64,000 nt of DNA, taken from Flavobacterium lacustre. GTDB taxonomy: Bacteria; Bacteroidota; Bacteroidia; Flavobacteriales; Flavobacteriaceae. How positions within the stretch are numbered: position 1 is the first letter of the stretch; every line of letters begins with the position of its first letter. The position numbers and the translations under genes are program-made. The notes beneath the pieces are model-generated. The model saw only the letters and a list, made by a program, of their open reading frames with translations. It was not told the DNA's origin and made no database searches. This document shows, piece by piece, positions 1 to 36,116 of the stretch. The stretch is taken from NCBI RefSeq assembly GCF_027474525.2, contig NZ_CP114882.2, positions 186,001-250,000 on the forward strand, in the 5' to 3' direction.

Positions 1-199
1 CAAGAATCGCAACTGCAGGTAGGAGAATCGTAACTACAGGCACAAGAATCATAACTAAAGGTAGGAGAATCTTAACTGCAGGCTCGAGAATCATAACTAC
101 AGGTAGGAGAATCGTAACTGCAGGCACAAGAATCATAACTAAAGGTAGGAGAATCGTAACTACAGGCACAAGAATCACAACTACAGGTAGGAGAATCGT
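1..199. repeat. 21-bp tandem repeat, about 9.5 copies
   Basis: Units of exactly 21 bp begin at 1, 22, 43 and so on to 190, with the core GAGAATCGTAACTACAGG. Two variants (opening CAAGAATC or GGAGAATC) mostly alternate, giving a 42-bp higher-order period. The first unit is at the window edge, so the array probably continues to the left. Read on the minus strand the repeat stays in frame and encodes a Cys/Ser/Tyr-rich 14-residue period (DSPTCSYDSCACSY). That frame opens at 311 and is closed at 72-74, where one base change makes a TAA in a unit that otherwise encodes Tyr. It may be a decayed or spurious reading frame; I do not call it a gene. Confidence 0.9.
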
Positions 200-203
200 G
201 GTT

Positions 204-376
204 TTGGGTTAGTCTACCCAATGCGCTAATGCTCTTATGTACGAAACGTTCTCGAAGAATTAAAGCTGGATCCATGATTTGTAGGAAAAAATGAATATAT
301 TTGAAAATCAATAAAGTCTGATGTCTATCAGACCTATCTACCCAAATAAGGGGTGATATGTCTGACTTTGTCAGAC
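204..376. other. Cluster of three short perfect hairpins
   Basis: There are three perfect small stems: 204-221 (TTGGGT, 6-nt loop, ACCCAA), 316-333 (GTCTGAT, 4-nt loop, ATCAGAC) and 360-376 (GTCTGAC, 3-nt loop, GTCAGAC). The second and third share the GTCTGA stem. They lie between the tandem repeat and the first attC-type core site at 387. Their role is unknown. They could be a terminator pair, a decayed REP-like element, or part of the left boundary of the cassette array. Confidence 0.5.
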
Positions 377-386
377 TTATTTACTA

Positions 387-395
387 GTTATATGC
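387..395 (+). repeat. Left-boundary core site (R'-like GTTATATGC)
   Basis: GTTATATGC fits the start of an attC/attI core site (GTT...). It is the exact reverse complement of GCATATAAC at 1123-1131, the R'' of the first cassette. No matching left half of an attC was found just upstream, so this may be an attI-like or secondary insertion site, or the remnant of an earlier attC. Confidence 0.6.
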
Positions 396-451
396 TACTT
401 GTGCCGAAATGACGCAGTTGAAAACATTCAGGAAATAACAATATTTGAAAA

Positions 452-943
452 ATGAAAAAACTAATTTCCGTAATAATTATAGTTTTATTAAGTAGTTGCG
501 AAAAGAAAAAAGAAAGTTGCTACACAAACTTTACTTATTCAAAAGGAAATATTAAAATGTTTTATAATTTAAAATTTAATTCATCTGATACAGTCTATTA
601 TTTAGATAAATATCCATTTGAACCAAAAGGTTTAAACTATTTCGTACTTGAAAAGAATGAAAAGAAAATATTAGATAGTTTAATATGTAAATTAAAATTT
701 CCTGTCAAAGATTCTGTCCTTATAAATAACGGAATACACGATGGAACAACAATTGCTTTCTCAATTGACAATAAAAGATTAATGCTTCACGGTCATAAAG
801 GTCCGAAAGAGTTTTGGAAATTTGAAGAGTGGATGAATTATTTGCTAAACCATAAACAATTAATACCAATTGAAAGGAAAGTAAAATTTGATAAGTTTGA
901 TAAAATGTTTCCAGGTCCTCCTCCTCCTATTGTAAAAGAATAA
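452..943 (+). CDS. Cassette 1: hypothetical lipoprotein
   Basis: This 163-residue protein has a short lipoprotein signal: MKKL, a hydrophobic stretch, then a LSSC lipobox around residue 16, so it is probably exported and lipid-anchored. The rest is hydrophilic with no domain I recognise. The C-terminus carries a proline run (PGPPPP). It shares the short motif EFWKF with the cassette 5 lipoprotein, perhaps by chance. The gene begins 64 nt after the cassette border at 387/388. About 180 bases of apparently non-coding DNA follow before its attC, unusually long for a cassette. Function unknown. Confidence 0.75.
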   Translation: MKKLISVIIIVLLSSCEKKKESCYTNFTYSKGNIKMFYNLKFNSSDTVYYLDKYPFEPKGLNYFVLEKNEKKILDSLICKLKFPVKDSVLINNGIHDGTTIAFSIDNKRLMLHGHKGPKEFWKFEEWMNYLLNHKQLIPIERKVKFDKFDKMFPGPPPPIVKE

Positions 944-1124
944 CGTTAATTGACCAATATTTGGATTCGCAGAAATATATAAAGCAGTAAAGCGAAAATT
1001 GAAATCTGCCAACAGAAATTGGAAAGTTGGAATCTAAAAAACAGAGACTTGAAAGTCAGAATACTCAACAGAAACTTGAAAAATTTTGTGGTTTAAATCG
1101 TAATTTAGAGCAAAAATAAGCAGC

Positions 1125-1249
1125 ATATAACAGCTGTTTCAATATACTTGCTGATTTAGTGGAATTACGTGCTGTTATCATAAATCCGTTCAACCAAAGC
1201 TACTCTGCTATCAAGGCAGCAAGCATCTTGAAGCAGCAGGACGTTATAG
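1125..1249 (+). repeat. attC-like site 1
   Basis: The R''-like end ATATAAC is at 1125-1131 and the R'-like end GTTATAG at 1243-1249. The arms AGCTGTTTCAA (1132-1142) and TTGAAGCAGCA (1229-1239) pair imperfectly, and CTTGCTG/CAGCAAG extends the stem. Total length is about 125 bp. Its R'' matches the opening bases of cassette 1 (387-395) exactly. Confidence 0.8.
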
Positions 1250-1264
1250 GCAATATTGACACAA

Positions 1265-1765
1265 ATGAATAAACAAGAACAAGATTTTATTTCTCTTTTA
1301 GTAATCATATTTTCTTTTGCGTATACTTTTTTCTATATGCTTAATGGGAAAGGAAATAGCCCTTTGAGTTTTAGGTACAATCAATTATTTGAGTGGAAAA
1401 GTCTAAAATATCATTTGCTTTTTGCTACAATATTTGCAATATTAGGTTTTGTAAGAATTGATTCTCTAACACTTGAAACATATTATTTTACACCAATCCT
1501 TTTTATAACTTCAACTTTAATGTGTAATTCAATCATTAAAGCTATTTACAACAGAAATATTTTAATGGAAGTGCCGAGTAGATTAGGTGATACATTTAGT
1601 AAAAATGCCAAATCTTTAGACAAGTTTTTTACGTTCATAATATTTTTAATTTCCCTGACTGTTCCTATAATTTTAAAAGCTCCGAAATTTAAAGAAATAA
1701 ATAATAGACATTTAACCGAAATAAAAAATACTGCCTATAACAGCCACTACAACGGATTTGGGTAA
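1265..1765 (+). CDS. Cassette 2: hypothetical membrane protein
   Basis: I place the start at ATG 1265 rather than the TTG at 1256, because the ATG is nearer the expected distance from the attC edge and opens a normal N-terminus (MNKQEQD). The product, about 166 residues, has roughly four hydrophobic segments (near residues 8-25, 50-65, 75-95 and 120-140), so it is probably an inner-membrane protein. The last nine or so codons (YNSHYNGFG, then TAA) lie inside the attC palindrome that follows, so the recombination site supplies the protein's tail. No family recognised. Confidence 0.7.
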   Translation: MNKQEQDFISLLVIIFSFAYTFFYMLNGKGNSPLSFRYNQLFEWKSLKYHLLFATIFAILGFVRIDSLTLETYYFTPILFITSTLMCNSIIKAIYNRNILMEVPSRLGDTFSKNAKSLDKFFTFIIFLISLTVPIILKAPKFKEINNRHLTEIKNTAYNSHYNGFG

Positions 1766-1866
1766 TAGGTTTAATGGGAAAATGGTTTTGTCTTTGGAAA
1801 TTTAGGCATAACCGAAAGATTACGCATTTTTAATCCCAAACCCGCTGTAGTGCCAGAACGTTGTGT
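1735..1866 (+). repeat. attC-like site 2
   Basis: R'' CTATAAC is at 1735-1741 and R' GTTGTGT at 1860-1866. The arm CACTACAACGGATTTGGG (from 1745) pairs with CCCAAACCCGCTGTAGTG just before CCAGAACGTT. TGCCTATAAC at 1732-1741 is the exact reverse complement of GTTATAGGCA at 1243-1252, which opens the same cassette. The site overlaps the end of the cassette 2 gene. Confidence 0.88.
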
Positions 1867-1915
1867 GCAAGCCTCACCGAACAAGACGTAATAAAAACAT
1901 ATAAAACGCAATATA

Positions 1916-2266
1916 ATGACTGGTGAATATCCTAATTTTAAAGACATTAAAGTTCATTGGACAAAATTTCATACTTTAATTGTGATGGTAATAACTTTCA
2001 GTGTAATTCTGTTTTTAATAAATCAAGCTAAATCAAAACCAATCACACTTACACAATATCTAAATGTCGCAGGATTATATTTAGATTTTTGGGGAGTTAT
2101 AATTGCTTCCTTAAAAACACCATATTATGGAGCTTTTTTCGATGCTGGAAAAATTGAAATTGAACGTCAAAAAGTGGAAAGCAAATACCTTAACATAGGG
2201 ATGATTTTAATTTTCATTGGAATGCTTTTACAAGTTTTGAGTACACTAAATAATTTTTTGACATAA
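1916..2266 (+). CDS. Cassette 3, gene 1: small membrane protein
   Basis: This 116-residue protein has about three hydrophobic segments (near residues 20-37, 48-66 and 92-112) and no recognised family. ATG 1916 lies 55 nt after the cassette edge at 1861. The next gene follows after 29 bases without an attC between them, so the two travel as one cassette. Function unknown; a membrane partner for the soluble protein encoded next is possible but unproven. Confidence 0.7.
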   Translation: MTGEYPNFKDIKVHWTKFHTLIVMVITFSVILFLINQAKSKPITLTQYLNVAGLYLDFWGVIIASLKTPYYGAFFDAGKIEIERQKVESKYLNIGMILIFIGMLLQVLSTLNNFLT

Positions 2267-2295
2267 ATACAAATATTTAATAAAACCTAATCAAA

Positions 2296-2880
2296 ATGGA
2301 AACCCTAAATATATTACTAGAAGCCATTAATACTGGCGAAGTATTGGATATAAAATATAATGGAGGTAGTCAACCTGGAGCTTTAAGAGAAATAGCCCCA
2401 ATTAGCATTTCAAATGGCAAAGTCAGTGCAAGGTGTTTAACCTCAAATTCAACAAAGACTTTCGATATAAATAAAATCGAAATATCTAAGAATTTCAACA
2501 GTGAAAATGAAGTTTGGAAAAAAGATTATATAAAAACTTTTAAGTACCAAAATTTAGATGATTTTTTTAATGCAGAATTTAATGAATTATTGAAATTAGG
2601 TTGGCATATTGAGCATACAAAAGAAAAAACATTATCACTCCATAAAATCTACAAAAATGGAAAAATAATGAAACGAAAAGAAGTTTCGTTAGAATTTGAA
2701 AAATTCGCATATGATTTTGTTGTTAACCCAGAAACAGCCGAAATAACCTGCGAAAATGAAAGAGTTAGGGAAAGACCTTGGATTGTAAGAGCCGAAAAAC
2801 ATAAAACAAATACATACGCAAATTTTGATAAAGCTCTAGAAATTTTTTTAAATTATGCTGAAAAATTAGCTACAATATAA
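2296..2880 (+). CDS. Cassette 3, gene 2: WYL-like N-terminal domain protein
   Basis: This 194-residue protein appears cytosolic. Residues 1-65 resemble a WYL-type Sm/SH3-like fold: a short helix (LLEAINTGEVLDIKYNGG), then ALREIAPISI, SARCLTSN and KTFDINKIEI, matching the usual pattern of a Y-containing strand, an R-x-I-x-P step and a final F-x-(I/L)-x-x-I strand. WYL domains are known as ligand-sensing modules in regulators of defence and stress genes. No DNA-binding HTH is evident. The C-terminal 120 residues are unrecognised. The family assignment comes from pattern memory and needs a profile search. Confidence 0.6.
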   Translation: METLNILLEAINTGEVLDIKYNGGSQPGALREIAPISISNGKVSARCLTSNSTKTFDINKIEISKNFNSENEVWKKDYIKTFKYQNLDDFFNAEFNELLKLGWHIEHTKEKTLSLHKIYKNGKIMKRKEVSLEFEKFAYDFVVNPETAEITCENERVRERPWIVRAEKHKTNTYANFDKALEIFLNYAEKLATI

Positions 2881-2900
2881 AGAGTAGTAAAAAGGCCAGC

Positions 2901-3059
2901 ACACAACAGCCGTTACACGAGATTTGGGTATTAGGCTTAATTTGAAAATGGTTTTATATTTGGGAGATTTGCTTCGCCTGTTCGCTATCGCTCGGGTGGT
3001 AAATCCGAGAATAGGGCTTAATTTAGTCCCAAACCCGCTGTATTACCAGGACGTTAGCG
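2901..3059 (+). repeat. attC-like site 3
   Basis: R'' ACACAAC is at 2901-2907 and R' GTTAGCG at 3053-3059. The arm GTTACACGAGATTTGGG pairs with CCCAAACCCGCTGTATTAC. GCACACAAC at 2899-2907 is the exact reverse complement of GTTGTGTGC at 1860-1868. Its interior resembles site 2 (GATTTGGGTA, GAAAATGGTTTT), so sites 2, 3 and 5 form a family. At about 159 bp it is long for an attC. A 67-codon frame across it is a shadow. Confidence 0.88.
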
Positions 3060-3083
3060 ATAATTATATTGAAAACCGTAAAT

Positions 3084-3980
3084 ATGAAAATTTATACATT
3101 GATTTTAGTTTCACTTTTTATAGTTAGCTGTAACATTAAAAAGCAAAATAATAAACATATTGAACATTCTGAAAAGTTATATCCAACTGTAAGTTATCTT
3201 GACCTAAAATTGGACGAATCGGGAAATTTACCCGAAAATCCATATATATTAGAATTTGAAAATGGAAAGAAAAAAATCGTCTTTTGTGGTGTAAACCATT
3301 TGACCGACAATAGCGATATTACTAATCCAATGTTTGGGAAAATTGAAAAAAAATTTTTTGATATTTCTCCAAATATTTCCATAAATGAAGGCGGCGACAT
3401 TTCCAAAAAAGTATACAAATCCAAACGAGAAGCATTATTAAAAGATGGCGAAATTGGGTTACTAAAAATAATATCTGATAGTTTAAAAATAAAAACTATT
3501 GATGGCGACATTAAAGCCAACTTAGAATTTAAAGAATTGCTAAAATATTATTCAAAAGGTGAATTTTTAGCTTACATAGTTACTGAAAGATTTATGTGGT
3601 CTTTAAAAGGAGAACGTATTAAAGACCAAAAAGAAATTGACACAAGATATTCTCAATTTATTCAAAACTATATAATGAAATTTGGAGAAGTTAAATTGAA
3701 TACGAAAGAGCAAACTCTTGATTTTTATAAAGCTAATTATGAAATGCTTCTAAATAGGAAATTTAATCTTGAAGAACTTGAGCCAACAAATCCTTTCGAT
3801 CCGATTGGAAAATTTCAAGAAATTGGCAGAAAATCAAAAGAAATTAGAGATCAATATTTGCTAAAAACGATTGACAATTTATTAGATACGAACGATAAAG
3901 TATTTATTGTTTTTGGTGGTTGGCATTTATTAACCTGCGAACCTGGATTAAAGCAAATAATTAATCGTAAACGAGAATAA
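3084..3980 (+). CDS. Cassette 4: TraB/GumN-like lipoprotein
   Basis: I choose ATG 3084 over the TTG at 3069, because it gives a clean lipoprotein signal (MKIYTLILVSLFIVSCN; lipobox IVSC). The product is about 298 residues. After the signal, FCGVNHLTDNSDI followed by SINEGG resembles the N-terminal G-x-x-H and E-G-G region of TraB/GumN (EreA/ChaN-like) proteins. The C-terminal VFIVFGGWHLL resembles their conserved G-x-x-H-L strand. These are putative metal-dependent or hydrolase-like folds of poorly known function. The gene starts 30 nt after its cassette edge. Fold assignment is by motif resemblance only. Confidence 0.65.
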   Translation: MKIYTLILVSLFIVSCNIKKQNNKHIEHSEKLYPTVSYLDLKLDESGNLPENPYILEFENGKKKIVFCGVNHLTDNSDITNPMFGKIEKKFFDISPNISINEGGDISKKVYKSKREALLKDGEIGLLKIISDSLKIKTIDGDIKANLEFKELLKYYSKGEFLAYIVTERFMWSLKGERIKDQKEIDTRYSQFIQNYIMKFGEVKLNTKEQTLDFYKANYEMLLNRKFNLEELEPTNPFDPIGKFQEIGRKSKEIRDQYLLKTIDNLLDTNDKVFIVFGGWHLLTCEPGLKQIINRKRE

Positions 3981-3984
3981 CTAT

Positions 3985-4102
3985 CGCTAACCGCAGTTAC
4001 CCGAAATTGCTGTTGTTCATCTTTTTTTCCTATTTTCGTTTTCGGTAATGGAGAAAACTCGGTTACCAAGCCGCAACTTCGGGTAGCAGCCAAACGTTAG
4101 GT
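3985..4102 (+). repeat. attC-like site 4
   Basis: R'' CGCTAAC is at 3985-3991 and R' GTTAGGT at 4096-4102. The arm TTACCCGAAATTGC pairs with GCAACTTCGGGTAGC. TATCGCTAAC at 3982-3991 is the exact reverse complement of GTTAGCGATA at 3053-3062, the first bases of the same cassette. Its arm sequence differs from sites 2, 3 and 5, while the overall architecture is the same. Confidence 0.88.
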
Positions 4103-4122
4103 ATCATTTAACCACAAAACGA

Positions 4123-4635
4123 ATGAAAAAAGGATTTTACATTATAATTTCAATTTTGTTTTTGAATTGTAGCGAAATTTCAAAATCAGACAAACGGGAT
4201 TTTGAAAAAGTAAAAATTAGTAATGAAATGTTTACTCCATATTCTCAATTTGAAAACTTATTTATTTGCAAAGATAGTATCGAAGATTTTGATACTGGAT
4301 ATTCGAAAATTGAACTAAATCAAGAGAATATTCAAATATTAAACTCTAAAAATGATGGTTACGAATCAACGCAAATTGAAATTATAATTGACAAAAACTT
4401 AAAAATTGAGACTGTTAAATATTCGTATAGCGACGATGTGGAAGATGGTTCAAAAACAGAATATGAGGTAATTGACGCTAAAATCAATATGAACAAAAAT
4501 CCATTTGAACAAAATTCAAAACAAATTACCGCGTATTATTTATTAAGAATTAGAGAAACAAATATTCCGAGCGAATTTTGGAAATTCAAAAAAGAAACTG
4601 AATATTATTTCAAAGGAAAAATTGAATGTAAATAA
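4123..4635 (+). CDS. Cassette 5: hypothetical lipoprotein
   Basis: This 170-residue protein has a short export signal (MKKGFYIIISILFLNC) ending in a lipobox-like FLNC, so it is probably a lipoprotein. The mature part is acidic and Asn/Lys/Ile-rich with no recognised domain. Near the end, EFWKFKKETEYYF resembles the EFWKFEEW of the cassette 1 protein. The ATG is 26 nt after the cassette edge. The stop is directly in front of the next attC. Function unknown. Confidence 0.72.
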   Translation: MKKGFYIIISILFLNCSEISKSDKRDFEKVKISNEMFTPYSQFENLFICKDSIEDFDTGYSKIELNQENIQILNSKNDGYESTQIEIIIDKNLKIETVKYSYSDDVEDGSKTEYEVIDAKINMNKNPFEQNSKQITAYYLLRIRETNIPSEFWKFKKETEYYFKGKIECK

Positions 4636-4640
4636 ACGAT

Positions 4641-4724
4641 ACATAACAACTACAACTGATTTGGCAAATATGAGAATAGAGCTTAATTTAGTGCCAAAAC
4701 CGCTGTAGTAGCGAAACGTTGGCA
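4641..4724 (+). repeat. attC-like site 5
   Basis: R'' ACATAAC is at 4641-4647 and R' GTTGGCA at 4718-4724. The arm CTACAACTGATTTGGCA pairs with TGCCAAAACCGCTGTAG. GATACATAAC at 4638-4647 matches the reverse complement of GTTAGGTATC (4096-4105) at 9 of 10 positions. At 84 bp it is the shortest site, and it keeps the GCTTAATTTAGT(N)CCAAA block of site 3. Confidence 0.86.
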
Positions 4725-4767
4725 ATACTAGACTACAAGACTGTAAAAGAACCAAAAACATAAGAAA

Positions 4768-5358
4768 ATGAATAAACTAAAATACATTCTTATCTGCTTT
4801 ACAATTACACTTCAAAGTTGTAACGGACAAACTACACCCAAAAAAGAAATTTACAATCAAGACTTTAAGTGGACAATTACGATACCTGAAAACTTTCAAA
4901 ATGTTAGTGCAGAAGAATGGGCAATAATGCAAAATAAAGGTGCTGATGCAATCGAAAAAACTTACGAAGCAGAAGTTATTAATCAAGCAAATACAATCTT
5001 TGTATTTAAAAGTGACCAGTTAAATTATTTTGAGTCTAACTATCAACCTTTTGACATATCAACTGACGGTGATTATTTAGAATCTTGTAAAAATGTAAAC
5101 GACATTTTATACGAAACATTTAAAACTCAAATGCCTGACATTAAAATTGACACAACAAAAATGGTTGAAAAAATTGATAATTTAGAATTTCAGACTTTTA
5201 AAATGAAAATTGAGTATCCGAATAAGATGGTTTTGAATGTATTAATGTATAGTAGACTTTTCGACAAAAAAGAATTTACAGTTAATATTATGTATTTGGA
5301 TAATAAAAAAGGTCAATTAATGCTTGAAGCTTGGAAAAAATCTAAATTCACTAAATAA
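4768..5358 (+). CDS. Cassette 6: hypothetical lipoprotein
   Basis: This 196-residue protein opens with MNKLKYILICFTITLQSC, a lipoprotein signal with lipobox LQSC. The mature chain looks like a small soluble envelope domain (FKWTITIPENFQ early, then acidic segments), but I recognise no family. Similar single-domain secreted proteins are common and uncharacterised in Flavobacteriaceae. The ATG lies 49 nt after the cassette edge. The stop is 16 bases before the next R''-like sequence. Confidence 0.72.
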   Translation: MNKLKYILICFTITLQSCNGQTTPKKEIYNQDFKWTITIPENFQNVSAEEWAIMQNKGADAIEKTYEAEVINQANTIFVFKSDQLNYFESNYQPFDISTDGDYLESCKNVNDILYETFKTQMPDIKIDTTKMVEKIDNLEFQTFKMKIEYPNKMVLNVLMYSRLFDKKEFTVNIMYLDNKKGQLMLEAWKKSKFTK

Positions 5359-5374
5359 TAAAAATGAGTACTGC

Positions 5375-5510
5375 CACTAACAGGTGTTTGACAAGATTTG
5401 GAATTTTGTGACAAATTCACGTTTCGCAAGAAATTTTATCCTAGCCGAAAGAACCCGGTTATGAAGTTCGCAACCACGCCAAGCGGAGAGACGCCAAAGG
5501 CAAGTTTAAA
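5375..5510 (+). repeat. attC-like site 6 (degenerate)
   Basis: R'' CACTAAC at 5375-5381 is clear, and GTACTGCCACTAAC resembles the reverse complement of the cassette 6 opening GTTGGCAATAC with a 2-3-nt difference. The right end is uncertain: GTTTAAA at 5504-5510 gives a weak stem (GTTTGAC with GCCAAAGGC), while GTTATGA at 5458-5464 is an alternative. The stem is poorly conserved, suggesting decay or a diverged class. Confidence 0.45.
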
Positions 5511-5519
5511 CGAATCAAT

Positions 5520-5963
5520 ATGAAAGAATATCTTTTTAAAAATGCAACAATCACATTTATAATTATGAATGTTTGGACATTATTTTTATTCTTCAATTAT
5601 CTACTTGAAGAACCCGGTTTATTTCGTGGATTAGGGACTTTAGGATTATACATATATAGCTTGGTTTTTGGAATTTTAATTGGAATAATAACATTGCTTT
5701 TAAGAATTTTAATATTTAGAAAAGCTAAAAGTGAAAAACTTAAAACCAATTTTTTCTATCTTTTTGCTGGAGTGTTTAATTTGACTCTTTTTATTACTTG
5801 GTTAACTTTAGTGTTATTAAAAATTCTTGAAGTACGTCAAGGAGAAATTCAAAATGCTGCAATTTGTAATGGTATTTTGTCCTTATTACTATTAGCTGAC
5901 TTGTTTATAGTAAAAGGAATAACTAAACCCGAAAGGAATATGGAAACCAAAGCTATTGAATAA
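5520..5963 (+). CDS. Cassette 7: hypothetical membrane protein
   Basis: This 147-residue protein has four likely membrane spans (near residues 10-28, 40-65, 80-103 and 113-132), each rich in Leu/Ile/Phe, and a charged tail. No family recognised. The ATG lies 15 nt after the proposed cassette edge at 5505. Downstream, CAATAAC (5974-5980) or TTAAAAC (5983-5989) may be the start of a truncated last attC before the chromosomal terminator at 6055. Role unknown. Confidence 0.68.
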   Translation: MKEYLFKNATITFIIMNVWTLFLFFNYLLEEPGLFRGLGTLGLYIYSLVFGILIGIITLLLRILIFRKAKSEKLKTNFFYLFAGVFNLTLFITWLTLVLLKILEVRQGEIQNAAICNGILSLLLLADLFIVKGITKPERNMETKAIE

Positions 5964-6054
5964 AAATCCGCTGCAATAACCCTTAAAACTGAGCTGTATT
6001 GTTCATTAGAAAAAAGAAATAGAATTTTTGTAAAAACGTTTCTGTTTACAACAT

Positions 6055-6120: not shown

Positions 6121-7593
6121 TTATCTTGAATAATTTGGAGCCTCTTTTGTAATGGTTACGTTGTGTGGATGGCTTTCGTTGATTCCGCTTGCTGTTATGC
6201 GAACAAAACGTCCGGTTTCCTGCAAGGTTGGAATGTCTTTTGCACCACAATATCCCATTCCGGCGCGAAGACCACCAATGAATTGTTGCATACTTTCGTT
6301 TAATTCTCCTTTGTAAGGTACACGTCCTACAATTCCTTCCGGAACTAATTTCTTAACGTCATCTTCGACATCTTGAAAATAACGGTCTTTTGATCCTTCT
6401 TGCATGGCTTCAACAGAACCCATTCCGCGGTATGATTTGAATTTTCTTCCTTCGAAGATAATCGTTTCTCCCGGAGATTCTTTGGTTCCTGCCAAAAGAG
6501 AGCCTAACATTACACAATCGGCTCCGGCAGCAATGGCTTTAGGAATATCCCCTGTGTAGCGAATTCCACCATCGGCAATTACAGGAACTCCAGTTCCTTT
6601 GATAGCCGCAGCTACTTCAAGCACTGCAGAAAACTGAGGAAAACCAACACCGGCTACAATACGAGTGGTACAGATTGAACCTGGACCAATTCCTACTTTT
6701 ACCCCATCGGCACCGTTTTCGACTAAATATTTAGCGGCTTCGGGAGTCGCAATATTCCCTACGATAACGTCTAGTTGCGGGAATTTGGCTTTTACTAATT
6801 TTAGTACATCAACCACTCCTTTTGTATGTCCGTGAGCGGTATCTATAATCACTGCGTCGACTCCGGCATTTACTAAAGCAGTTGCTCTTTCGACCGCATC
6901 GGCAGTAACGCCTAAAGCAGCAGCTACGCGCAAACGTCCGTACTTGTCTTTATTGGCATTTGGTTTCTGAGTTAATTTGGTAATGTCTCTGAAAGTGATT
7001 AAACCCACTAACTCTGATTTATCATTTACCACAGGAAGTTTTTCGATTTTATGACCTTGCAAAACAACTTCGGCTTGTTCCAGAGAAGTTCCTTCGGCAA
7101 CGGTCACTAAGTTTTGGCTGGTCATTACCTCAACGATTGGTCTTGCGTTGTTTCTTTCAAAACGCAAATCTCTATTGGTAACAATTCCTTTTAGGATTCT
7201 GTTTTCATCAACGATTGGAATTCCTCCAATTCCGTATTCCTTCATTGCATTTTTAGCATCTGCTACAGTAGAAGTCAACGGTAAAGTGACTGGATCGATA
7301 ATCATTCCTGACTCGGCACGTTTTACTTTACGTACTTTGGCAGCTTGTTGTTCGATAGTCATGTTTTTATGTAAAACACCGATTCCTCCTTCTTGTGCCA
7401 TAGCAATTGCCATTGCACTTTCGGTTACGGTATCCATAGCAGCGGATACAATAGGAACATTAAGCGTTATATTTCTTGAAAATTTTGATTGGATACTCAC
7501 TTCGCGAGGAAGCACATTCGAATAGTTAGGAACTAATAGTACATCATCGTAAGTTAATCCTTCACCGATAATCTTAGAGTTGTGTGCGATCAT
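6121..7593 (-). CDS. guaB: Inosine-5'-monophosphate dehydrogenase
   Basis: This enzyme oxidises IMP to XMP with NAD+, the first committed step of GMP synthesis, in the cytosol. At 490 residues it has the usual bacterial length. The TIM-barrel catalytic domain is split by a CBS pair (about residues 95-210). The phosphate-binding/active-site loop [11 protein letters not shown] carries the catalytic Cys at about residue 308, and the [10 protein letters not shown] motif follows near 341. The start at 7593 gives the standard N-terminus ([10 protein letters not shown]). A -7 element lies at 7624-7631. It is a single-gene unit facing the cassette array, which suggests the array was inserted beside a conserved locus. 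Confidence 0.97.
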
Positions 7594-14598: not shown

Positions 14599-16545
14599 AT
14601 GATTAAGATTACTTTGCCCGATGGGTCAGTTAAAGAGTTTGCGCCTGGGATTACTCCTATGGATGTTGCTAAAAGCATTAGCGAAGGATTTGCCAGAAAC
14701 GTAATTTCGGCTTCTTTTGATGGTACAATTGTTGAAACAACGACTCCTTTAACCACAGACGGCAGTCTTATTTTATATACTTGGAATGACGAAGGTGGTA
14801 AAAAAGCATTTTGGCATTCTACTTCACACGTAATGGCGCAAGTTCTTGAGGAAATGTATCCTGGAATCAAATTAACGCTTGGACCTGCAATCGCTAATGG
14901 GTTTTATTATGATGTGGATTTTGAAGAGCATAAAATCACCGATGCCGATTTCAAAAAAATCGAAGATCGTGTTTTAGAAATTTCAAGAGGAAAATTCGAA
15001 TTCAAATTGCGTCCGGTATCTAAAGCAGAAGCTCTAGAAACCTACAAAGACAATGTTTATAAAACCGAATTAATTTCGAATCTTGAAGATGGAACCATCA
15101 CGTTTTGTGACCACTCTACTTTCACCGATTTATGTCGTGGTGGACATATTCCTAACACCGGAATCATCAAAGCGATGAAAATCATGAGCGTTGCCGGAGC
15201 GTATTGGAGAGGAGACGAAAAGAACAAACAGTTGACACGTGTTTACGGAATTTCGTTCCCTAAACAAAAAGACTTAACAGAATACCTGGAATTATTGGAA
15301 GAGGCAAAACGTCGCGACCATAGAAAACTAGGAAAAGAATTAGAATTGTTTGCGTTTTCACAAAAAGTAGGTGCAGGTTTGCCATTGTGGTTACCAAAAG
15401 GCGCCGCTTTGAGAGATCGTTTAGAGCAATTCTTGAAAAAAGCACAGAAAAAAGCAGGATACGAACAAGTAGTTACACCACATATTGGTCAAAAAGAATT
15501 GTATGTAACTTCGGGTCATTATGCAAAATATGGTGCCGATAGTTTCCAACCGATAAATACTCCTGCTGAAGGTGAAGAGTTTTTATTGAAACCGATGAAC
15601 TGTCCTCACCACTGCGAAATTTATAATGTACGTCCTTGGTCTTACAAAGATTTACCAAAACGTTACGCTGAATTTGGAACGGTTTACAGATACGAACAAA
15701 GTGGTGAATTACACGGTTTGACTCGTGTACGTGGCTTTACTCAGGATGATGCTCATATTTTCTGTACACCAGAACAATTAGACGAAGAGTTCAAAAAAGT
15801 AATTGACTTGGTACTTTATGTATTTGGTTCATTAGGGTTTGAAAACTTTACCGCTCAGATTTCTTTAAGAGACAAAGAAAACAAAGATAAATACATTGGT
15901 ACAGACGAAAATTGGGAGAAAGCAGAAAATGCAATCATCAATGCTGCTGCCGATAAAGGACTAAATACAGTAGTTGAATACGGAGAAGCCGCTTTCTATG
16001 GTCCAAAGCTGGATTTCATGGTAAAAGATGCTTTGGGAAGACAATGGCAATTAGGAACAATTCAAGTTGATTATAACTTGCCAGAACGTTTTGAATTGAC
16101 TTACAAAGGATCTGACAATGAATTACATAGACCCGTGATGATTCACAGAGCTCCATTTGGTTCAATGGAACGTTTTATCGCTATTTTACTAGAACACACG
16201 GCAGGAAATTTCCCACTCTGGTTAATGCCTGAACAAGCTATAATATTGTCTTTGAGCGAGAAATATGAAATATATGCCAAAAAAGTTTTAGATTTGCTAG
16301 AAAATCACGAAATTCGCGCCCTCATTGATAATAGAAACGAGACAATCGGTAAGAAAATTAGAGATGCCGAAATGCAAAAAACACCGTTTATGTTGATTGT
16401 AGGTGAAGAAGAAGAGAAAAACGGTACCATTTCTATCCGTCGTCATGGACAAGAAGGTAAAGGAAATATCAGCGTTACAATAGAAGAATTTGCTGCTATT
16501 GTAAACGAAGAGATTAGCAAAACATTAAAAGTATTTACAGTTTAA
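14599..16545 (+). CDS. thrS: Threonine-tRNA ligase
   Basis: This enzyme charges tRNA-Thr with threonine. At 648 residues it is full length. An N-terminal TGS domain ([14 protein letters not shown], about 1-60) is followed by the editing/SAD domain with HSTSHVMAQ (H-x-x-x-H) and CRGGH. The class II core begins near 240 with motif 2 around [26 protein letters not shown] carries the zinc-binding Cys, and [11 protein letters not shown] is motif 3. The C-terminal anticodon-binding domain starts near residue 545. It heads an operon with infC, rpmI and rplT; infC follows 16 bases later. The two tRNA-Thr genes lie at 60143 and 60447. Confidence 0.97.
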
Positions 16546-16561
16546 CTTAAATTATAAAGTC

Positions 16562-17119
16562 ATAGCAATAAGAAGCAACAGAGGTTACCAACCTCGCGTA
16601 GAAAAAAAAGATGCACACAGAATAAATAATTTTATTCGTGGTGTACAAGAAGTAAGACTTGTAGGTGAAAACATTGAGCCTGGAGTTTTTAAACTTGCAG
16701 AAGCTTTAAGATTAGCGGACCAATTTGAATTGGATTTGGTTGAAATTTCACCAAATGCTGATCCACCAGTTTGTAAAATCATGGATTACAAGAAATTTGT
16801 TTACGAACAAAAGAAACGTGATAAGGTTTTAAAAGCCAAATCTACACAAGTAGTTGTGAAAGAAATCCGTTTTGGCCCTCAAACAGATGAGCATGATTAT
16901 GAATTTAAGAGAAAGAACGCGGAGAAATTCCTAAAAGAAGGCGCAAAATTAAAAGCTTTTGTATTCTTCAAAGGACGTTCGATTATCTATAAAGATCAAG
17001 GTCAAATCTTGTTATTAAGATTAGCTACAGATCTTGAAGAATTTGGTAAAGTAGAAGCGATGCCAGTTCTTGAAGGAAAGAGAATGATTATGTTCATTGC
17101 TCCTAAAAAGAAAAAATAA
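16562..17119 (+). CDS. infC: Translation initiation factor IF-3 (ATA start)
   Basis: IF-3 binds the 30S subunit, blocks premature 50S joining and checks the start codon. The frame from 16562 encodes 185 residues: the N-domain [12 protein letters not shown], then [11 protein letters not shown], the linker helix, and the C-domain from about [17 protein letters not shown] to [11 protein letters not shown]. No ATG, GTG or TTG is in frame before residue 57 (the TTG at 16730), which would remove the N-domain. The natural start is therefore the ATA at 16562, giving the usual family N-terminus (M)AIRSNRG. A non-standard start is known for infC in other bacteria (AUU in E. coli), where IF-3 represses its own start, so autoregulation is likely. 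The gene lies 16 bases after thrS. Confidence 0.9.
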
Positions 17120-17193
17120 GTCTTAAAGTCGAAAGTCTTAAAGTAAAAAGTCAGCAACTGACATTCAAACTTTAGACGTTCAAACTTTAGACT
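17120..17193. repeat. AAAGTC/GACTTT palindromic intergenic repeat, copy 1
   Basis: GTCTTAAAGTC and related blocks in the left half face CAAACTTTAGAC blocks in the right half, forming a long imperfect hairpin between infC and rpmI. Related copies lie at 17441-17514 and 51446-51519. Confidence 0.65.
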
Positions 17194-17234
17194 AAAGATA
17201 AGTAAGTAAGAATAAATTAAAACACTAGGAAAAA

Positions 17235-17432
17235 ATGCCTAAAATGAAAACCAAATCTAGCGCCAAGAAACGTTTCAAAGTTACTGGTTCTGGAAAGATT
17301 AAAAGAAAGCATGCTTTTAAAAGTCACATCTTGACTAAAAAATCTAAAAAACGTAAATTAGCTTTGACACACTCAGCGCTAGTTCACTCTACAGATATGA
17401 AAAGCATCAAACAACAATTAAGAATTATTTAA
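17235..17432 (+). CDS. rpmI: 50S ribosomal protein L35
   Basis: This 65-residue basic protein of the large subunit begins [20 protein letters not shown], the standard bL35 start, and includes [19 protein letters not shown]. It sits between infC and rplT, the order conserved across bacteria. It is separated from both neighbours by palindromic AAAGTC repeats. Confidence 0.97.
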
Positions 17433-18048: not shown

Positions 18049-18900
18049 TCACTTATTTGTAATATACTTTTTTATAATATAAGGACTTATTTTCTTTAAT
18101 GTTTTTCCGGTTATAGGATGAAGACCGGGTTGGGAAAAATATTCATATTTCCCTGTTATTGGTTCTTTCCCATACCAAACCATTGGTAAATCATGCAATC
18201 CATTTTTAAAAAAAGTAGTGGTATCACAAACCGATATCTTCCTGAAATGATCTACTTCAAATTGATTAATAGGCTTTACATCTTCCTTATTCTTAACCTC
18301 ATCATAACCTACTACTTCATAATGATTCTCAACCCATATCATTCCGTTTTTATTTGGAAAACAAATACTCTTTAAGCTATACCCCAGCGAAGTAAATAAC
18401 AAAAGAACAAAAAAACCAATTATTACCTTTCCTCTAAAAGAAAACCTTTTTACAGGCTCAAGACCTTGAATGAAATCTGTTACATTCAATTTATTCTTAC
18501 CCCCACTTATTTTTACACTTACAATTCCTTTATTATCATCATAATCTCCGTTTCGAAACTTGACGTAAGGTCTTGGACTAAAATCAACCAAAACAGCTAT
18601 CAAATTCAAACTTTCAATCTGAGTAATATCAGTATTCTTAATCAAAAAATTTATAAAAGGTCTGAACTTATCAGTATCAAACTTTTCTATTTGTTTGATT
18701 TTATCTTCCTTTTCTTCAAAATTGAAAAACCGATCAAAAATCCCCTTATCAACCAAGTCCTTATTTATTTCAAAAATCAAAGCACATAATTTTTTAATTT
18801 TTGCAGGAGAAGGATTTATTAAATAATCCGAAAAATCACCAGATTTTACTCCTTCGTATTTTTCCTTAATAGCCTTTTTATATCCATCAAGTGTATTCAT
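18049..18900 (-). CDS. Hypothetical one-TM protein
   Basis: This 283-residue protein has a cytosolic N-half of about 155 residues, largely helical and Lys/Asp-rich. One membrane span lies near residues 160-178 (VIIGFFVLLLFTSLGYSL), followed by an extracytoplasmic C-half ending in PITGKYEYFSQPGLHPITGK and then ISPYIIKKYI. The G-x-H-P-x-T-G ending recalls a C-terminal tail I have seen on unrelated flavobacterial hypotheticals, from memory. No function is known. It is a single-gene unit convergent with rplT. Confidence 0.75.
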   Translation of the reverse strand: MNTLDGYKKAIKEKYEGVKSGDFSDYLINPSPAKIKKLCALIFEINKDLVDKGIFDRFFNFEEKEDKIKQIEKFDTDKFRPFINFLIKNTDITQIESLNLIAVLVDFSPRPYVKFRNGDYDDNKGIVSVKISGGKNKLNVTDFIQGLEPVKRFSFRGKVIIGFFVLLLFTSLGYSLKSICFPNKNGMIWVENHYEVVGYDEVKNKEDVKPINQFEVDHFRKISVCDTTTFFKNGLHDLPMVWYGKEPITGKYEYFSQPGLHPITGKTLKKISPYIIKKYITNK

Positions 18901-18913
18901 GTTAAGTCAGTTT

Positions 18914-18972
18914 ATTGGAATTATTTGGAATCTGCCGGAATTGGGTGGAATCATTGGAATGATTGGAATTCC
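18914..18972. repeat. GGAAT short tandem repeat
   Basis: Six NNGGAAT blocks are spaced 9-10 bases apart just upstream of the minus-strand gene at 18049-18900. Their spacing is near one helical turn. The 352-base gap 18901-19252 holds nothing else I can support; an 89-codon minus frame there looks spurious. Confidence 0.6.
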
Positions 18973-19252
18973 ATACCATTTCCTCTTCATAATCAGCATT
19001 CCTTTGCCTTAGAATTAGTTTTTGTCTTATCCTGCAATTAAGACAAATGTACGAAACTAGTTTCAAAAAAGGTGTCGCTAAACAGTACAGAAAATTTATC
19101 CGGGAAGTATAAATCATTCTATTCTGTTTTAGCACACTCACTTCCCAAAAAGAATAAAAGAGCAGTCCCAAAAAAAAGGATTTCCAGCTCAGCTAAGCTT
19201 CGATTTCAATTTCGAACAGCACAACTTATGTCTAATTTTTAATTCCAAAAAA

Positions 19253-19420
19253 ATGAAAAAAGTATTTTTAGCCTCAATGTTTCTTTTAATAAGCACAATA
19301 ATGGCATCCTGCACTAATGACGAGGTCGAAACTAAGCCAAACAATTCTAAAACACAAATAACCGCAGAAACCGGAGGAGATTCCAGTGGGCAAACTCCAA
19401 TAAGTCCACCTAAAAGATAA
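19253..19420 (+). CDS. Small lipoprotein (55 residues)
   Basis: The frame ATG 19253 to TAA 19420 gives a signal peptide MKKVFLASMFLLISTIMASC with lipobox MASC, then a short mature tail rich in Thr/Asn/Ser/Pro ending in SPPKR, with no fold. It lies 59 bases upstream of a TPR histidine kinase gene on the same strand, so it may be co-transcribed. Tiny lipoproteins in front of such kinases could act as envelope signals or be bystanders. No family is recognised. Confidence 0.7.
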   Translation: MKKVFLASMFLLISTIMASCTNDEVETKPNNSKTQITAETGGDSSGQTPISPPKR

Positions 19421-19479
19421 TACAAATATTGTTAATTAGAAAAGTGCACAATTTTAATTAATTTCAGTAATTTCGGGAA

Positions 19480-21204
19480 ATGATACTCAAAAAGTTCCAT
19501 TTCCCGATTTTTCTATTAGTACCAATCCTACTAATGACTTTGCAATCCTGTAAAAAAGAACAACACATTAGTCCGGAGTCAAAATCCAATTTTGATTATG
19601 ATAAAATTTTAGATCTGGCAGAAAAAAATTTAGAGTCTCAAAATTTTGACAGTGCCTTTTATTACTATAATAAAATTAAATCAAATTGCGACCCAAATAA
19701 AGAACAAGATGAAATTATCTATGCTTTATTACGAATGGCTTACATCCAACAAACGCAAGGTGACTACTCTAGTAGCGAAACCAGTGCGACAGAAGCAATT
19801 TCTTATTTCAAAAAAAATACAGACTCTTATTATAAAGTAGCCAGCTATAATTTATTAGCTATAAATTACAAACAGTTATTTGATTTTAACAACAGTATCT
19901 ATTACTACAAGCAAGCTTTAAATTTAGCAGAAGATGAATTACAAAAGGCAGTTATTCTAAACAATATTGCTGTTGTATATATGGATAAGGACAAATATTC
20001 CCACGCTATAAAAATTCTTATGCCTTTATCCTTAAAAAAAGAGGTTATAAATAATTCAGATAATTATGCCAGGGTCTTAGATAACTTAGGTCGTTGCTAT
20101 TATAAAATTGGAAATCACAAAAGCATTGATTATCTAAAACAATCCTTAGCTATTAGAAACAAATTCAAAAATGACTACGGATTAACCACCAGTTATCTTA
20201 ATATTTCTGAATTTTATGAAAAAACTCAACCCCACATCGCGACTAAATATGCCAAATTAGCTTATGAAAAAGCAACTATAGTTAATAATGTTGATGACCG
20301 TCTGAAAGCATTAGCTTCAATAATCAGAAACAGCGACGGAGATCAGTCTAAAACCTATTCTGCAGCCTACCTCTACATTAACGACAGCATCAATAAAATA
20401 AGACAGAAAGCGAAAAATCAATTTGCTAAAATTAAATATGACTCTAAAAAAGAACGAGATGAAAATTTAAAACTCAAAACTCAAAGAGCAGAAAATGCAC
20501 TTCAATTAGAACAACAAAAAAACAGCAATCTCTTTTTATCTTTTGTTATTGTTCTTGGTATTATTGCTACACTTTTTCTAATTTATTTTTTTAAAGAAAG
20601 AAGTAAAAAAGAAAAAATTAAAACATCTTATGATACAGAAACCCGAATTTCAAAAAAATTACATGATGAACTGGCCAATGATGTTTACCACGCAATGGCT
20701 TTTGCCGAAACCCAAGATTTATCTTCGAGTGAGAATAAAGAATTATTACTTACGAACCTTGATACCATTTATTCAAGAACGCGGAATATTTCAAAAGAAA
20801 ACAGTGCGATAGAAACCAGAATTAATTTTGTGGGAAACCTAAAAGAAATGATGGCTGCTTTCAATACCCAAGAAGTAAATATTTTAGTCAACGGATGGGA
20901 AGCTTGTCCTTGGAACATTTTAAAAGATGAAACAAAAATAACACTCTATCGCGTGCTACAAGAATTATTAGTTAACATGAAAAAACACAGTAAATGCAGT
21001 TTAGTCGTAATTACTTTTAAAAAAAATAAAAATAAATTAGAAATAGATTACAGTGATAACGGGCTTGGAGCAACATCTGAAGAAATAAATATGAAGAATG
21101 GACTTCAAAATGTGGAAAACCGTATTCTTGGTATAAAAGGAACTATTACTTTTGACACAGTATCCAAAAAAGGATTCAAAGCAAGTCTCACATTACCCAT
21201 TTAA
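19480..21204 (+). CDS. TPR-containing sensor histidine kinase
   Basis: This 574-residue two-component kinase opens with a lipoprotein-like signal (lipobox LQSC, Cys near residue 24). Tetratricopeptide repeats follow at about 45-300 (ALLRMAYIQQTQGDYSSSE, YNLLAINYKQLFDFNNSIYY). A coiled-coil stretch at 305-350, a membrane span at about 351-371 and a NarX/DesK-like HisKA_3 box (ISKKLHDELAND, His near 395) come next. The HATPase domain has YSDNGLGATSEEIN and NGLQNVENRI. The TPR part is periplasmic and probably senses a peptide or protein partner. Its response regulator follows after 12 bases. Confidence 0.88.
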   Translation: MILKKFHFPIFLLVPILLMTLQSCKKEQHISPESKSNFDYDKILDLAEKNLESQNFDSAFYYYNKIKSNCDPNKEQDEIIYALLRMAYIQQTQGDYSSSETSATEAISYFKKNTDSYYKVASYNLLAINYKQLFDFNNSIYYYKQALNLAEDELQKAVILNNIAVVYMDKDKYSHAIKILMPLSLKKEVINNSDNYARVLDNLGRCYYKIGNHKSIDYLKQSLAIRNKFKNDYGLTTSYLNISEFYEKTQPHIATKYAKLAYEKATIVNNVDDRLKALASIIRNSDGDQSKTYSAAYLYINDSINKIRQKAKNQFAKIKYDSKKERDENLKLKTQRAENALQLEQQKNSNLFLSFVIVLGIIATLFLIYFFKERSKKEKIKTSYDTETRISKKLHDELANDVYHAMAFAETQDLSSSENKELLLTNLDTIYSRTRNISKENSAIETRINFVGNLKEMMAAFNTQEVNILVNGWEACPWNILKDETKITLYRVLQELLVNMKKHSKCSLVVITFKKNKNKLEIDYSDNGLGATSEEINMKNGLQNVENRILGIKGTITFDTVSKKGFKASLTLPI

Positions 21205-29977: not shown

Positions 29978-31052
29978 TGCGCAATAAGTAAATGGCTAAA
30001 ATTCCGAAGGCTATATTAGGTAACCAAACGGCCAACATTGGAGGAATACTTGATTTTTCGGCTAATACTCCGAAGATTTTATCAAAAAAGACAAATGCAA
30101 AAGCAAGTGCAATTCCTATTGCTAAATTAGTTCCCATTCCTCCTCTTCGTTTCATAGAAGAAACTGCAACAGCAATAACTGTAAGTATAAATGCAGAAAC
30201 CGGAATACTATATTTTTTGTATAAAACAACCAAATACACATTGATATTTGAAGAACCACGACTCTTTTCTTTTTCAATAAAAGCATTTAATTTACCTAAA
30301 CTTAAAGTCTCTGCAATGTAAACTACTGGTGTTAAATCTTCTAAATCAAAAATAAATTTAGCCTTTTTTTCAGGTACTTTTTCTATTTTGTCACCCAGTT
30401 TCCCCACGGTTCTTTTCGTATAATCATAGAGTGTGTAGGTACTATCTTTTGGATTCCATTTAATTCTGCTTGCCGTTATTTTATGTACCAGTTTCTCTTC
30501 TTTAAACTTTTCTAACGAAAAATTAAATGCAGTCTTAGATTCGGTATTAAAACTATTTACATAAATAAATTCATCATCACTAATTTGTCTGTAAACATCT
30601 GTATTATCGCCCATCATAGCTTGCTTTCCATCATTCCTCAGATAAGTGTATCTAAAGCTGTTGAAACCTTCACTGGAAGCAGGAACAATAAAAAAACCCA
30701 TTAACAACACAAAAACAGATATAATAGACGCACCAATAATATAGGGTCTTAAAAAACGAGTAAAAGATATTCCGGAACTTAGAATAGCTATAATTTCGGT
30801 ATTATTTGCCAATTTAGAAGTAAACCAAATCACCGATAAAAACAGAAATATCGGAAATAGCATGTTAGCGAAATAAACTGTAAAATGATAATAATAGATA
30901 GCAATTTCAAGGAATGGAACTTTATTTTCCAACATTTTATTGATCTTCTCCGAAACATCAATAACAATTCCTATTGGGATAAACAATAACAACATAACCG
31001 CAAAAGTGGCTAAATATCGCTTAAGAATGTATTTATCTATAATTGTTAACAT
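29964..31052 (-). CDS. LptF/LptG family permease
   Basis: This is an inner-membrane part of the LptB2FG ABC complex that pulls lipopolysaccharide from the membrane to the periplasmic bridge. At 362 residues it has the YjgP/YjgQ layout: three N-terminal spans (from MLTIIDKYILKRYLATFAVM), a periplasmic beta-jellyroll-like middle (about 120-265) and three C-terminal spans ending LRNAKR. I cannot tell LptF from LptG by eye. It lies between tgt and the EamA gene, probably one operon. Confidence 0.9.
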   Translation of the reverse strand: MLTIIDKYILKRYLATFAVMLLLFIPIGIVIDVSEKINKMLENKVPFLEIAIYYYHFTVYFANMLFPIFLFLSVIWFTSKLANNTEIIAILSSGISFTRFLRPYIIGASIISVFVLLMGFFIVPASSEGFNSFRYTYLRNDGKQAMMGDNTDVYRQISDDEFIYVNSFNTESKTAFNFSLEKFKEEKLVHKITASRIKWNPKDSTYTLYDYTKRTVGKLGDKIEKVPEKKAKFIFDLEDLTPVVYIAETLSLGKLNAFIEKEKSRGSSNINVYLVVLYKKYSIPVSAFILTVIAVAVSSMKRRGGMGTNLAIGIALAFAFVFFDKIFGVLAEKSSIPPMLAVWLPNIAFGILAIYLLRNAKR

Positions 31053-35965: not shown

Positions 35966-36116
35966 TCCTAGCCCTGATCGCAGTGAAAAGCCTTTTTTGA
36001 AATGGTCTTGACTTTTTTCTTGACGAAAAAGAGCGACCGGAGGAAGCTCCTTTTTAGTCTTAGAAAAAGCAAGAACAGGAAAAAAGCTTGTAACGAAGAG
36101 CGGGAAATTGCTCCTA
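35966..36116. other. Structured intergenic element
   Basis: This element sits in the 675-base gap 35495-36169, which has no gene. It begins TCCTAGCCCTGATCGCAGTG and ends GAGCGGGAAATTGCTCC. Inside, TCTTGACTTTTTTCT pairs with AGAAAAAGCAAGA, and AAAAAGAGC pairs with GCTCCTTTTT across a GACCGGAGGAA loop, making a long hairpin. I recall closely similar blocks repeated in Flavobacterium intergenic regions. It could be a small RNA, a structured UTR or a mobile REP-like unit. The strand is not determined. Confidence 0.5.

Follow-up and report, generated by a model that had tools for sequence, protein, structure and literature searches.

Background

The start of an integron cassette and the end of the same cassette once formed one attC site, and the core of the sites used by the integron integrase, IntI, is seven nucleotides long (GTTRRRY). 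The literature consulted here defines integrons by IntI. Extrahelical bases of the attC bottom strand are important for recognition by IntI (PMC3053210), the I2 domain of IntI is said to accommodate these bases (PMC4792948), clusters of attC sites lacking integron integrases (CALINs) are described with no IntI nearby (PMC8618304), and the IntegronFinder 2.0 survey has a complete integron in one member of the Bacteroidetes, Salinibacter ruber M1 (PMC9024848).

Here we analyse 64,000 nucleotides of the complete 3.45-Mb genome of Flavobacterium lacustre (NZ_CP114882.2, bases 186001-250000; "the window" denotes this whole stretch), near the left end of which an attI-like site, eight same-strand open reading frames (ORFs) and six palindromic sites span positions 359-5963. 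This array is very probably the integrase-less remnant of a class of Bacteroidota integrons that works with a non-IntI tyrosine recombinase, parallel to the IntI integrons. We adopt this reading because an independent model finds all six sites and the cassettes match their own ends; because the stems and attI sites covary and, in relatives, a recombinase directly precedes attI and the array; and because the recombinase is associated with attC sites, the system occurs on a plasmid and matching cassettes have no homologous neighbours. A literature search returned no description of such integrons; its coverage of subscription papers and preprints was thin, and a prior description is possible.

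Results

attC sites and cassette ends

The palindromic sites of the window are attC sites. An independent covariance model (R3), for which 28 sites were taken exclusively from other genomes, recovered all six, five of them at 40-119 bits and a short one at 20.5 bits, and its only further match in the 64 kb lies at 30755-30866 (E 0.68). A second model (R2) was built from sites 1 to 5 of Table 1, so that their recovery by it is by construction; outside this genome it gave 275 matches at E ≤ 0.05 in 18 stretches from eleven genomes, a count that includes mirror hits on the opposite strand. A short-loop model (R1) reached full score at only two of five sites and was replaced, and BLAST with one attC was used instead of a whole-genome covariance search, which missed three of five known sites.

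The original prediction for this DNA had proposed a CALIN of seven cassettes, with eight small genes on one strand separated by palindromic AAC...GTT sites. The eight plus-strand ORFs are indeed there, between 452 and 5963, and so are the palindromes, except that none lies between the two ORFs of cassette 3. The five site positions that it listed (1125, 1735, 2901, 3985 and 4641) all correspond to sites 1 to 5 of Table 1, each being 4 nt off. The count of seven has to be lowered: there are six attC sites and hence six attC-bearing cassettes, no attC having been detected after the trailing ORF.

The first 15 nt of each window cassette were compared with the reverse complement of its last 15 nt at 11 scored positions. 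Cassettes 1 to 5 begin with the reverse complement of their own ends at 10 or 11 of these; the sum for the window is reached by one of 720 pairings, namely the true one, and random GTT/AAC pairs of the window reach 10/11 at a frequency of 4.5 × 10-5. We take the match in cassettes 1 to 5 as the mark of a circular intermediate. The match of cassette 6 is restored, as judged by eye, if a 3-nt indel is allowed.

The same features recur in the 13 arrays that were compared, where 174 of 184 model-hit sites have the exact AAC...GTT. Of 171 cassettes, 117 match their own ends at no fewer than 9 of 13 positions, versus 169 of 3782 pairings in which a cassette is set against another from its array; many of these control matches are attributed to copies of one repeated cassette in a single genome (G212). 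The match falls sharply beyond 15 nt, and of the 116 well-matched cassettes 108 have, at position 11, an A at the start where the complement of the end has a G. One attC per cassette, the GTT/AAC core and own-end complementarity are shared with IntI integrons; the 15-nt length of that complementarity and its fixed mismatch at position 11 are not. The repeated cassette of G212 measures 328 nt and is present in about ten copies in a 41-site array on contig C30 (L045, L046); it apparently carries no long ORF and has relatives in G167 and G150.

Stem structure of the attC sites

A hairpin stem with an AAC...GTT core is present, as in the attC of IntI integrons, and 16 of its 17 consensus pairs show at least one pair-keeping change on both sides among the 28 R3 sites. 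Extrahelical bases of the IntI type were not found: the arms align with no inserted base in 25 of 28 sites, one base being inserted in the other three (L087, L088, L099), and a 5-nt unpaired stretch lies next to the GTT on one side. Instead, the stems carry fixed mismatches. Top-strand mismatches in 174 sites comprise 347 A.C, 60 G.T and 157 others, and an A.C mismatch occupies stem position 18 in 165 of the 174 and in all 28 aligned sites. On the bottom strand these A.C mismatches become G.T wobbles. Fixed wobbles thus stand where IntI sites have extrahelical bases, as a difference between the two types. We did not meet a fixed A.C/G.T stem wobble in the available parts of the integron literature consulted for comparison.

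The array head

At the head of relatives' arrays, the 3' end of the recombinase gene, with TANNTTTG, is followed by the attI-like site. TANNTTTG, which we take to be the motif of a promoter-like -7 element, is found around the recombinase stop codon in 29 of 37 loci, versus 131 of 1902 background windows. The attI palindrome varies in sequence between species, yet covaries. Among 28 distinct sequences, 84.7% of cells are paired, versus at most 50.5% when slid, and both sides have changed in 55 cells, versus at most 13 when slid; nine of the 37 loci, in which the pattern found no clean junction, were left out, and a single duplicate was merged. A recombinase, an attI and a promoter-like element are further likenesses to IntI integrons, from which the palindromic attI sets these arrays apart.

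An integrase gene adjoins attI in the relatives, and the window has their attI-like site with no recombinase gene before it. Tail codons of the GATTTGTAG type, which we read as the end of the lost gene, occur at two further heads of this genome as well. The attI-like site and the apparent integrase tail codons therefore indicate an integron that has lost its integrase, not a bare attC cluster. The array resembles a CALIN, as predicted, in having at least two attC sites (six by R3) with no integrase in the window or the genome; it departs from one in keeping an attI-like head and tail codons and in the type of its attC, which is not that of IntI.

Upstream of the window's head lies a 21-bp minisatellite that occurs at about nine places in the genome, the window included, three of them upstream of attI heads. 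At two loci of other genomes (L061, L148), strong GC-rich hairpins with CTTCGGG-like loops stand directly behind the attI junction.

The recombinase of the relatives

In two relatives (G108, G167) attI and the array are preceded by a gene for a tyrosine recombinase of some 347 residues; in a third (G149) this gene is broken. In the cases read it shares the orientation of the cassettes, another difference from IntI integrons. The enzyme is a XerA-like, non-IntI tyrosine recombinase that lacks the IntI insertion, the additional (I2) domain near patch III. The distance from KGxxxR to xLRH is 58-59 residues, versus 100-101 in IntI; cognate recombinases score 198-228 bits on TIGR02249, for which the cut-off is 265; and the family is placed outside the IntI clade. 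NF040815 (XerA) is the best NCBIfam match of the three recombinases compared (219.1, 220.5 and 236.6 bits; cut-off 220), and the XerA structures 5hxy and 4a8e in the Protein Data Bank (PDB) are the best or near-best solved structures. XerD of the window's own genome scores 218.7 bits on NF040815. The product name of NF040815, "site-specific tyrosine recombinase/integron integrase", is also the name that NCBI gives the recombinase. XerA resolves chromosomes at dif, whereas the present gene heads cassette arrays and encodes an extra N-terminal domain. Named relatives from same-genus genomes are mostly Flavobacterium. The recombinase was folded with a pLDDT of 67.9 at first and of 87.2 with a more diverse alignment. 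The original prediction had called the enzyme that moves these cassettes unknown; the relatives point to this family.

The N-terminal 65 residues lie outside most of these matches. A profile of 15 recombinase N-termini (L205 included) has as its best PDB match 4o66, the HARP domain of SMARCAL1 (E 1.8 × 10-4; next 0.078). Among ten relatives searched singly with HARP (PF07443), L205 exceeds the Pfam cut-off (29.4 bits, cut-off 25), three match weakly and six not at all; in single checks L095 gave a weak match, and the array-linked L056, as well as L092, gave none. No HARP structure is among the listed rows of a structure comparison, few of which reach residues 1-66. HARP is the name-giving domain of an annealing helicase at replication forks (PMC4035279); here the HARP-like domain is fused to a recombinase, not to a helicase. 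We suggest that it may help to read folded attC.

These observations bear on two other accounts of the array. The first is an ordinary CALIN of the IntI system, its cassettes placed by an IntI acting from elsewhere, for which the described CALINs with no nearby IntI (PMC8618304) offer a precedent. IntI exceeded the cut-off in none of 397 genomes of the family and not in the window's own, a non-IntI recombinase heads such arrays, and the stems mostly lack bulged bases, all of which makes this account highly improbable. The second holds that XerC and XerD of the host move the cassettes. They are the nearest tyrosine recombinases left in the genome (162 bits for XerD and 117 bits for the XerC-like protein, against recombinase profile A4), yet a dedicated recombinase adjoins attI in the relatives, and the attI palindromes change in concert inside a given genome's head, in contrast to Xer sites, which are conserved. 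We regard a role for the host pair as very unlikely.

Distribution of recombinase and arrays

The recombinase family is present in 123 of 249 genomes of the genus (E 1 × 10-60) and a narrow attC pattern in 54 of them, none of the rows giving any control match. Recombinase and pattern are associated: the former occurs in 35 of the 54 genomes with the pattern and in 88 of the 195 others (p 0.014), and, when matches under about 55% identity are left out, in 34 of 54 versus 62 of 195 (p 6 × 10-5). Of 30 loci searched with R2, 17 have attC sites downstream of the recombinase and none has any upstream, the downstream stretches covered ranging from 38 to about 1500 nt. Two further sets of loci gave attC sites with R2: 8 of 16 in a set whose recombinases are mostly divergent, and 7 of 20 in a set drawn mostly from other families and classes. 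Of 80 named loci, 54 were run with R2 and ten matched, nine of them downstream on the same strand, including Algoriphagus ornithinivorans, Cyclobacterium sp., Flavobacterium aciduliphilum, Algibacter onchidii and Winogradskyella ursingii; at L201 the hit is upstream on the other strand. A model-free scan revealed own-end matches in further loci. Of 395 genomes sampled from the phylum, 113 matched the recombinase profile at E ≤ 1 × 10-70, a figure that counts relatives with no arrays, and the system was found in several Bacteroidota families.

In Chryseobacterium sp. SNU WT5 the recombinase gene lies on a plasmid, and five attC hits follow downstream of it. On another plasmid (L176) the integrase is present and no attC hit had a useful E-value. 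In L175, the plasmid cassette array holds a group II intron reverse transcriptase (18768-20084) and an IS110 transposase (16302-17303).

Cassette neighbours

Comparison of the 171 cassettes between arrays gave 49 pairs that match for most of their length; no homologous neighbour accompanies any of these pairs. One such pair, from two species, is 92.9% identical over 817 nt. No window cassette belongs to the 49 pairs or has a DNA-level homologue among the 171. A gene order fixed across species, which would have marked a normal operon, was thus not seen. The possibility of an operon with repetitive intergenic palindromes, of terminator or REP (repetitive extragenic palindrome)-like type, draws on the colinear, tightly packed genes and on the palindromes at gene ends. 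It leaves unexplained both the changed neighbours and why the 5' end of a gene should be complementary to the 3' end of that gene at a distance of 500-1000 nt; a fixed operon is rejected on these two grounds, and we give this explanation almost no weight.

At the protein level, cassette 4 has homologues in 5 of 239 genomes of the genus, the window's own (G000) included. In G046 the relative of cassette 4 lies inside an attC array with no match to any other window cassette protein; no attC was found within 1.5 kb of the other copies (G196, G067, G140).

State of the system in this genome

The original prediction saw no integron integrase in the window, and the search of the complete genome agrees: no match exceeds the TIGR02249 cut-off, the best single stretch reaching 73 bits. 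The recombinase profile found XerD, the XerC-like protein and five more distant recombinases only. A canonical IntI in this genome is accordingly rejected.

Other attC sites lie at about 1.324-1.330 Mb (five), 2.313-2.317 Mb and 3.331-3.340 Mb; those at 1.187-1.189 Mb are weaker, and one each is found near 2.269 and 2.367 Mb. Four or five arrays of the genome, the window's included, have attI-like heads; the further heads are at 1.186, 1.332, 2.312 and 3.330 Mb (G000:C1), the palindrome being weak at the last. The leaders of the window and of the 1.332-Mb head are identical over 58 nt. No integrase match was found in the stretches searched around these heads. The integrase has been lost from this genome and several heads remain.

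Features of the window

The coordinates are collected in Table 1. PADLOC found nothing in the window cassettes beyond a weak WYL match of the second ORF of cassette 3 (E 9 × 10-5). The ORF of cassette 4 has a weak TraB/PrgY/GumN match (Pfam E 0.0036), which is below the cut-off. A recombinase search of the 20 kb left of the array gave no match, and the long ORFs there look chromosomal by eye. To the right lies an IMP dehydrogenase-like gene (6121-7593, named by eye), and an Rfam Flavo-1 RNA is found at 35966-36111 (57.2 bits).

Table 1. Array features in window coordinates
Feature	Position	Strand	Remarks
21-bp minisatellite	1..200	.	directly upstream of array head
GATTTGTAG, read as last two codons and stop of lost integrase gene	276..284	+	matches position of relatives' recombinase 3' end
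TATATTTG, promoter-like -7 element	296..303	+	motif TANNTTTG
attI-like site	317..389	+	palindrome 359-377, GTT junction 387-389
Cassette 1	387..1242	+	ORF 452-943, lipoprotein-like by eye; own-end match 10/11
attC site 1	1129..1245	+	R3 50.4 bits
Cassette 2	1243..1859	+	ORF 1265-1765; own-end match 11/11
attC site 2	1739..1862	+	R3 118.6 bits
Cassette 3	1860..3052	+	ORFs 1916-2266, 2296-2880; own-end match 10/11
attC site 3	2905..3055	+	R3 66.3 bits
Cassette 4	3053..4095	+	ORF 3084-3980; own-end match 11/11
attC site 4	3989..4098	+	R3 52.7 bits
Cassette 5	4096..4717	+	ORF 4123-4635; own-end match 10/11
attC site 5, short	4645..4720	+	R3 20.5 bits, E 0.074, at 4642-4720; R2 56.7 bits by construction
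Cassette 6	4718..5495	+	ORF 4768-5358; own-end match 4/11
attC site 6, degenerate	5379..5495	+	terminal GTT lost, ends GCC; R3 40.4 bits
Trailing ORF	5520..5963	+	no R3 attC match after it

Discussion

Complete members of this class have a recombinase gene, a promoter-like element at its 3' end, an attI palindrome with a GTT junction and cassettes that end in attC. We propose that the bottom strand of attC would fold into a hairpin whose stem is closed by the G.T wobbles, and that the recombinase would recognise this hairpin, perhaps with the HARP-like domain aiding the binding of the folded strand, and join it to double-stranded attI at the GTT. Joining at attI would place each incoming cassette beside the promoter, and excision would bring the two 15-nt ends of a cassette back into pairing, restoring its own attC. 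For the remnant array of the window, any rearrangement would need an enzyme supplied in trans.

Several observations weigh against this reading. Recombination itself is inferred, none having been observed, and activity cannot be claimed for the window's genome because the recombinase gene is absent. Only 121 of 184 sites fold better on the bottom strand than on the top, and the mean gain is about 1 kcal/mol. Nineteen of the 54 genomes with the attC pattern have no recombinase at E 1 × 10-60, and close relatives of the recombinase (L089-L092, L096) have no R2 match in the flanking stretches searched. Most of the 49 matching pairs belong to one 15-member family of short cassettes, and in the window cassette 6 and the end of the array are degenerate.

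Conclusions

On balance we favour, with less assurance than for the class itself, a phylum-wide integron lineage of the Bacteroidota, in which a HARP-domain recombinase without I2 acts on attC sites without extrahelical bases and the strand is set by fixed wobbles. If this is true, integron-type cassette capture exists in two independent forms, and neither I2 nor extrahelical bases are required for cassette recombination. Surveys that rely on IntI and on its attC model would overlook large pools of cassettes if there is a second recombinase lineage that has attI and attC types of its own; such a lineage would also offer a natural control for the source of strand specificity in cassette recombination.

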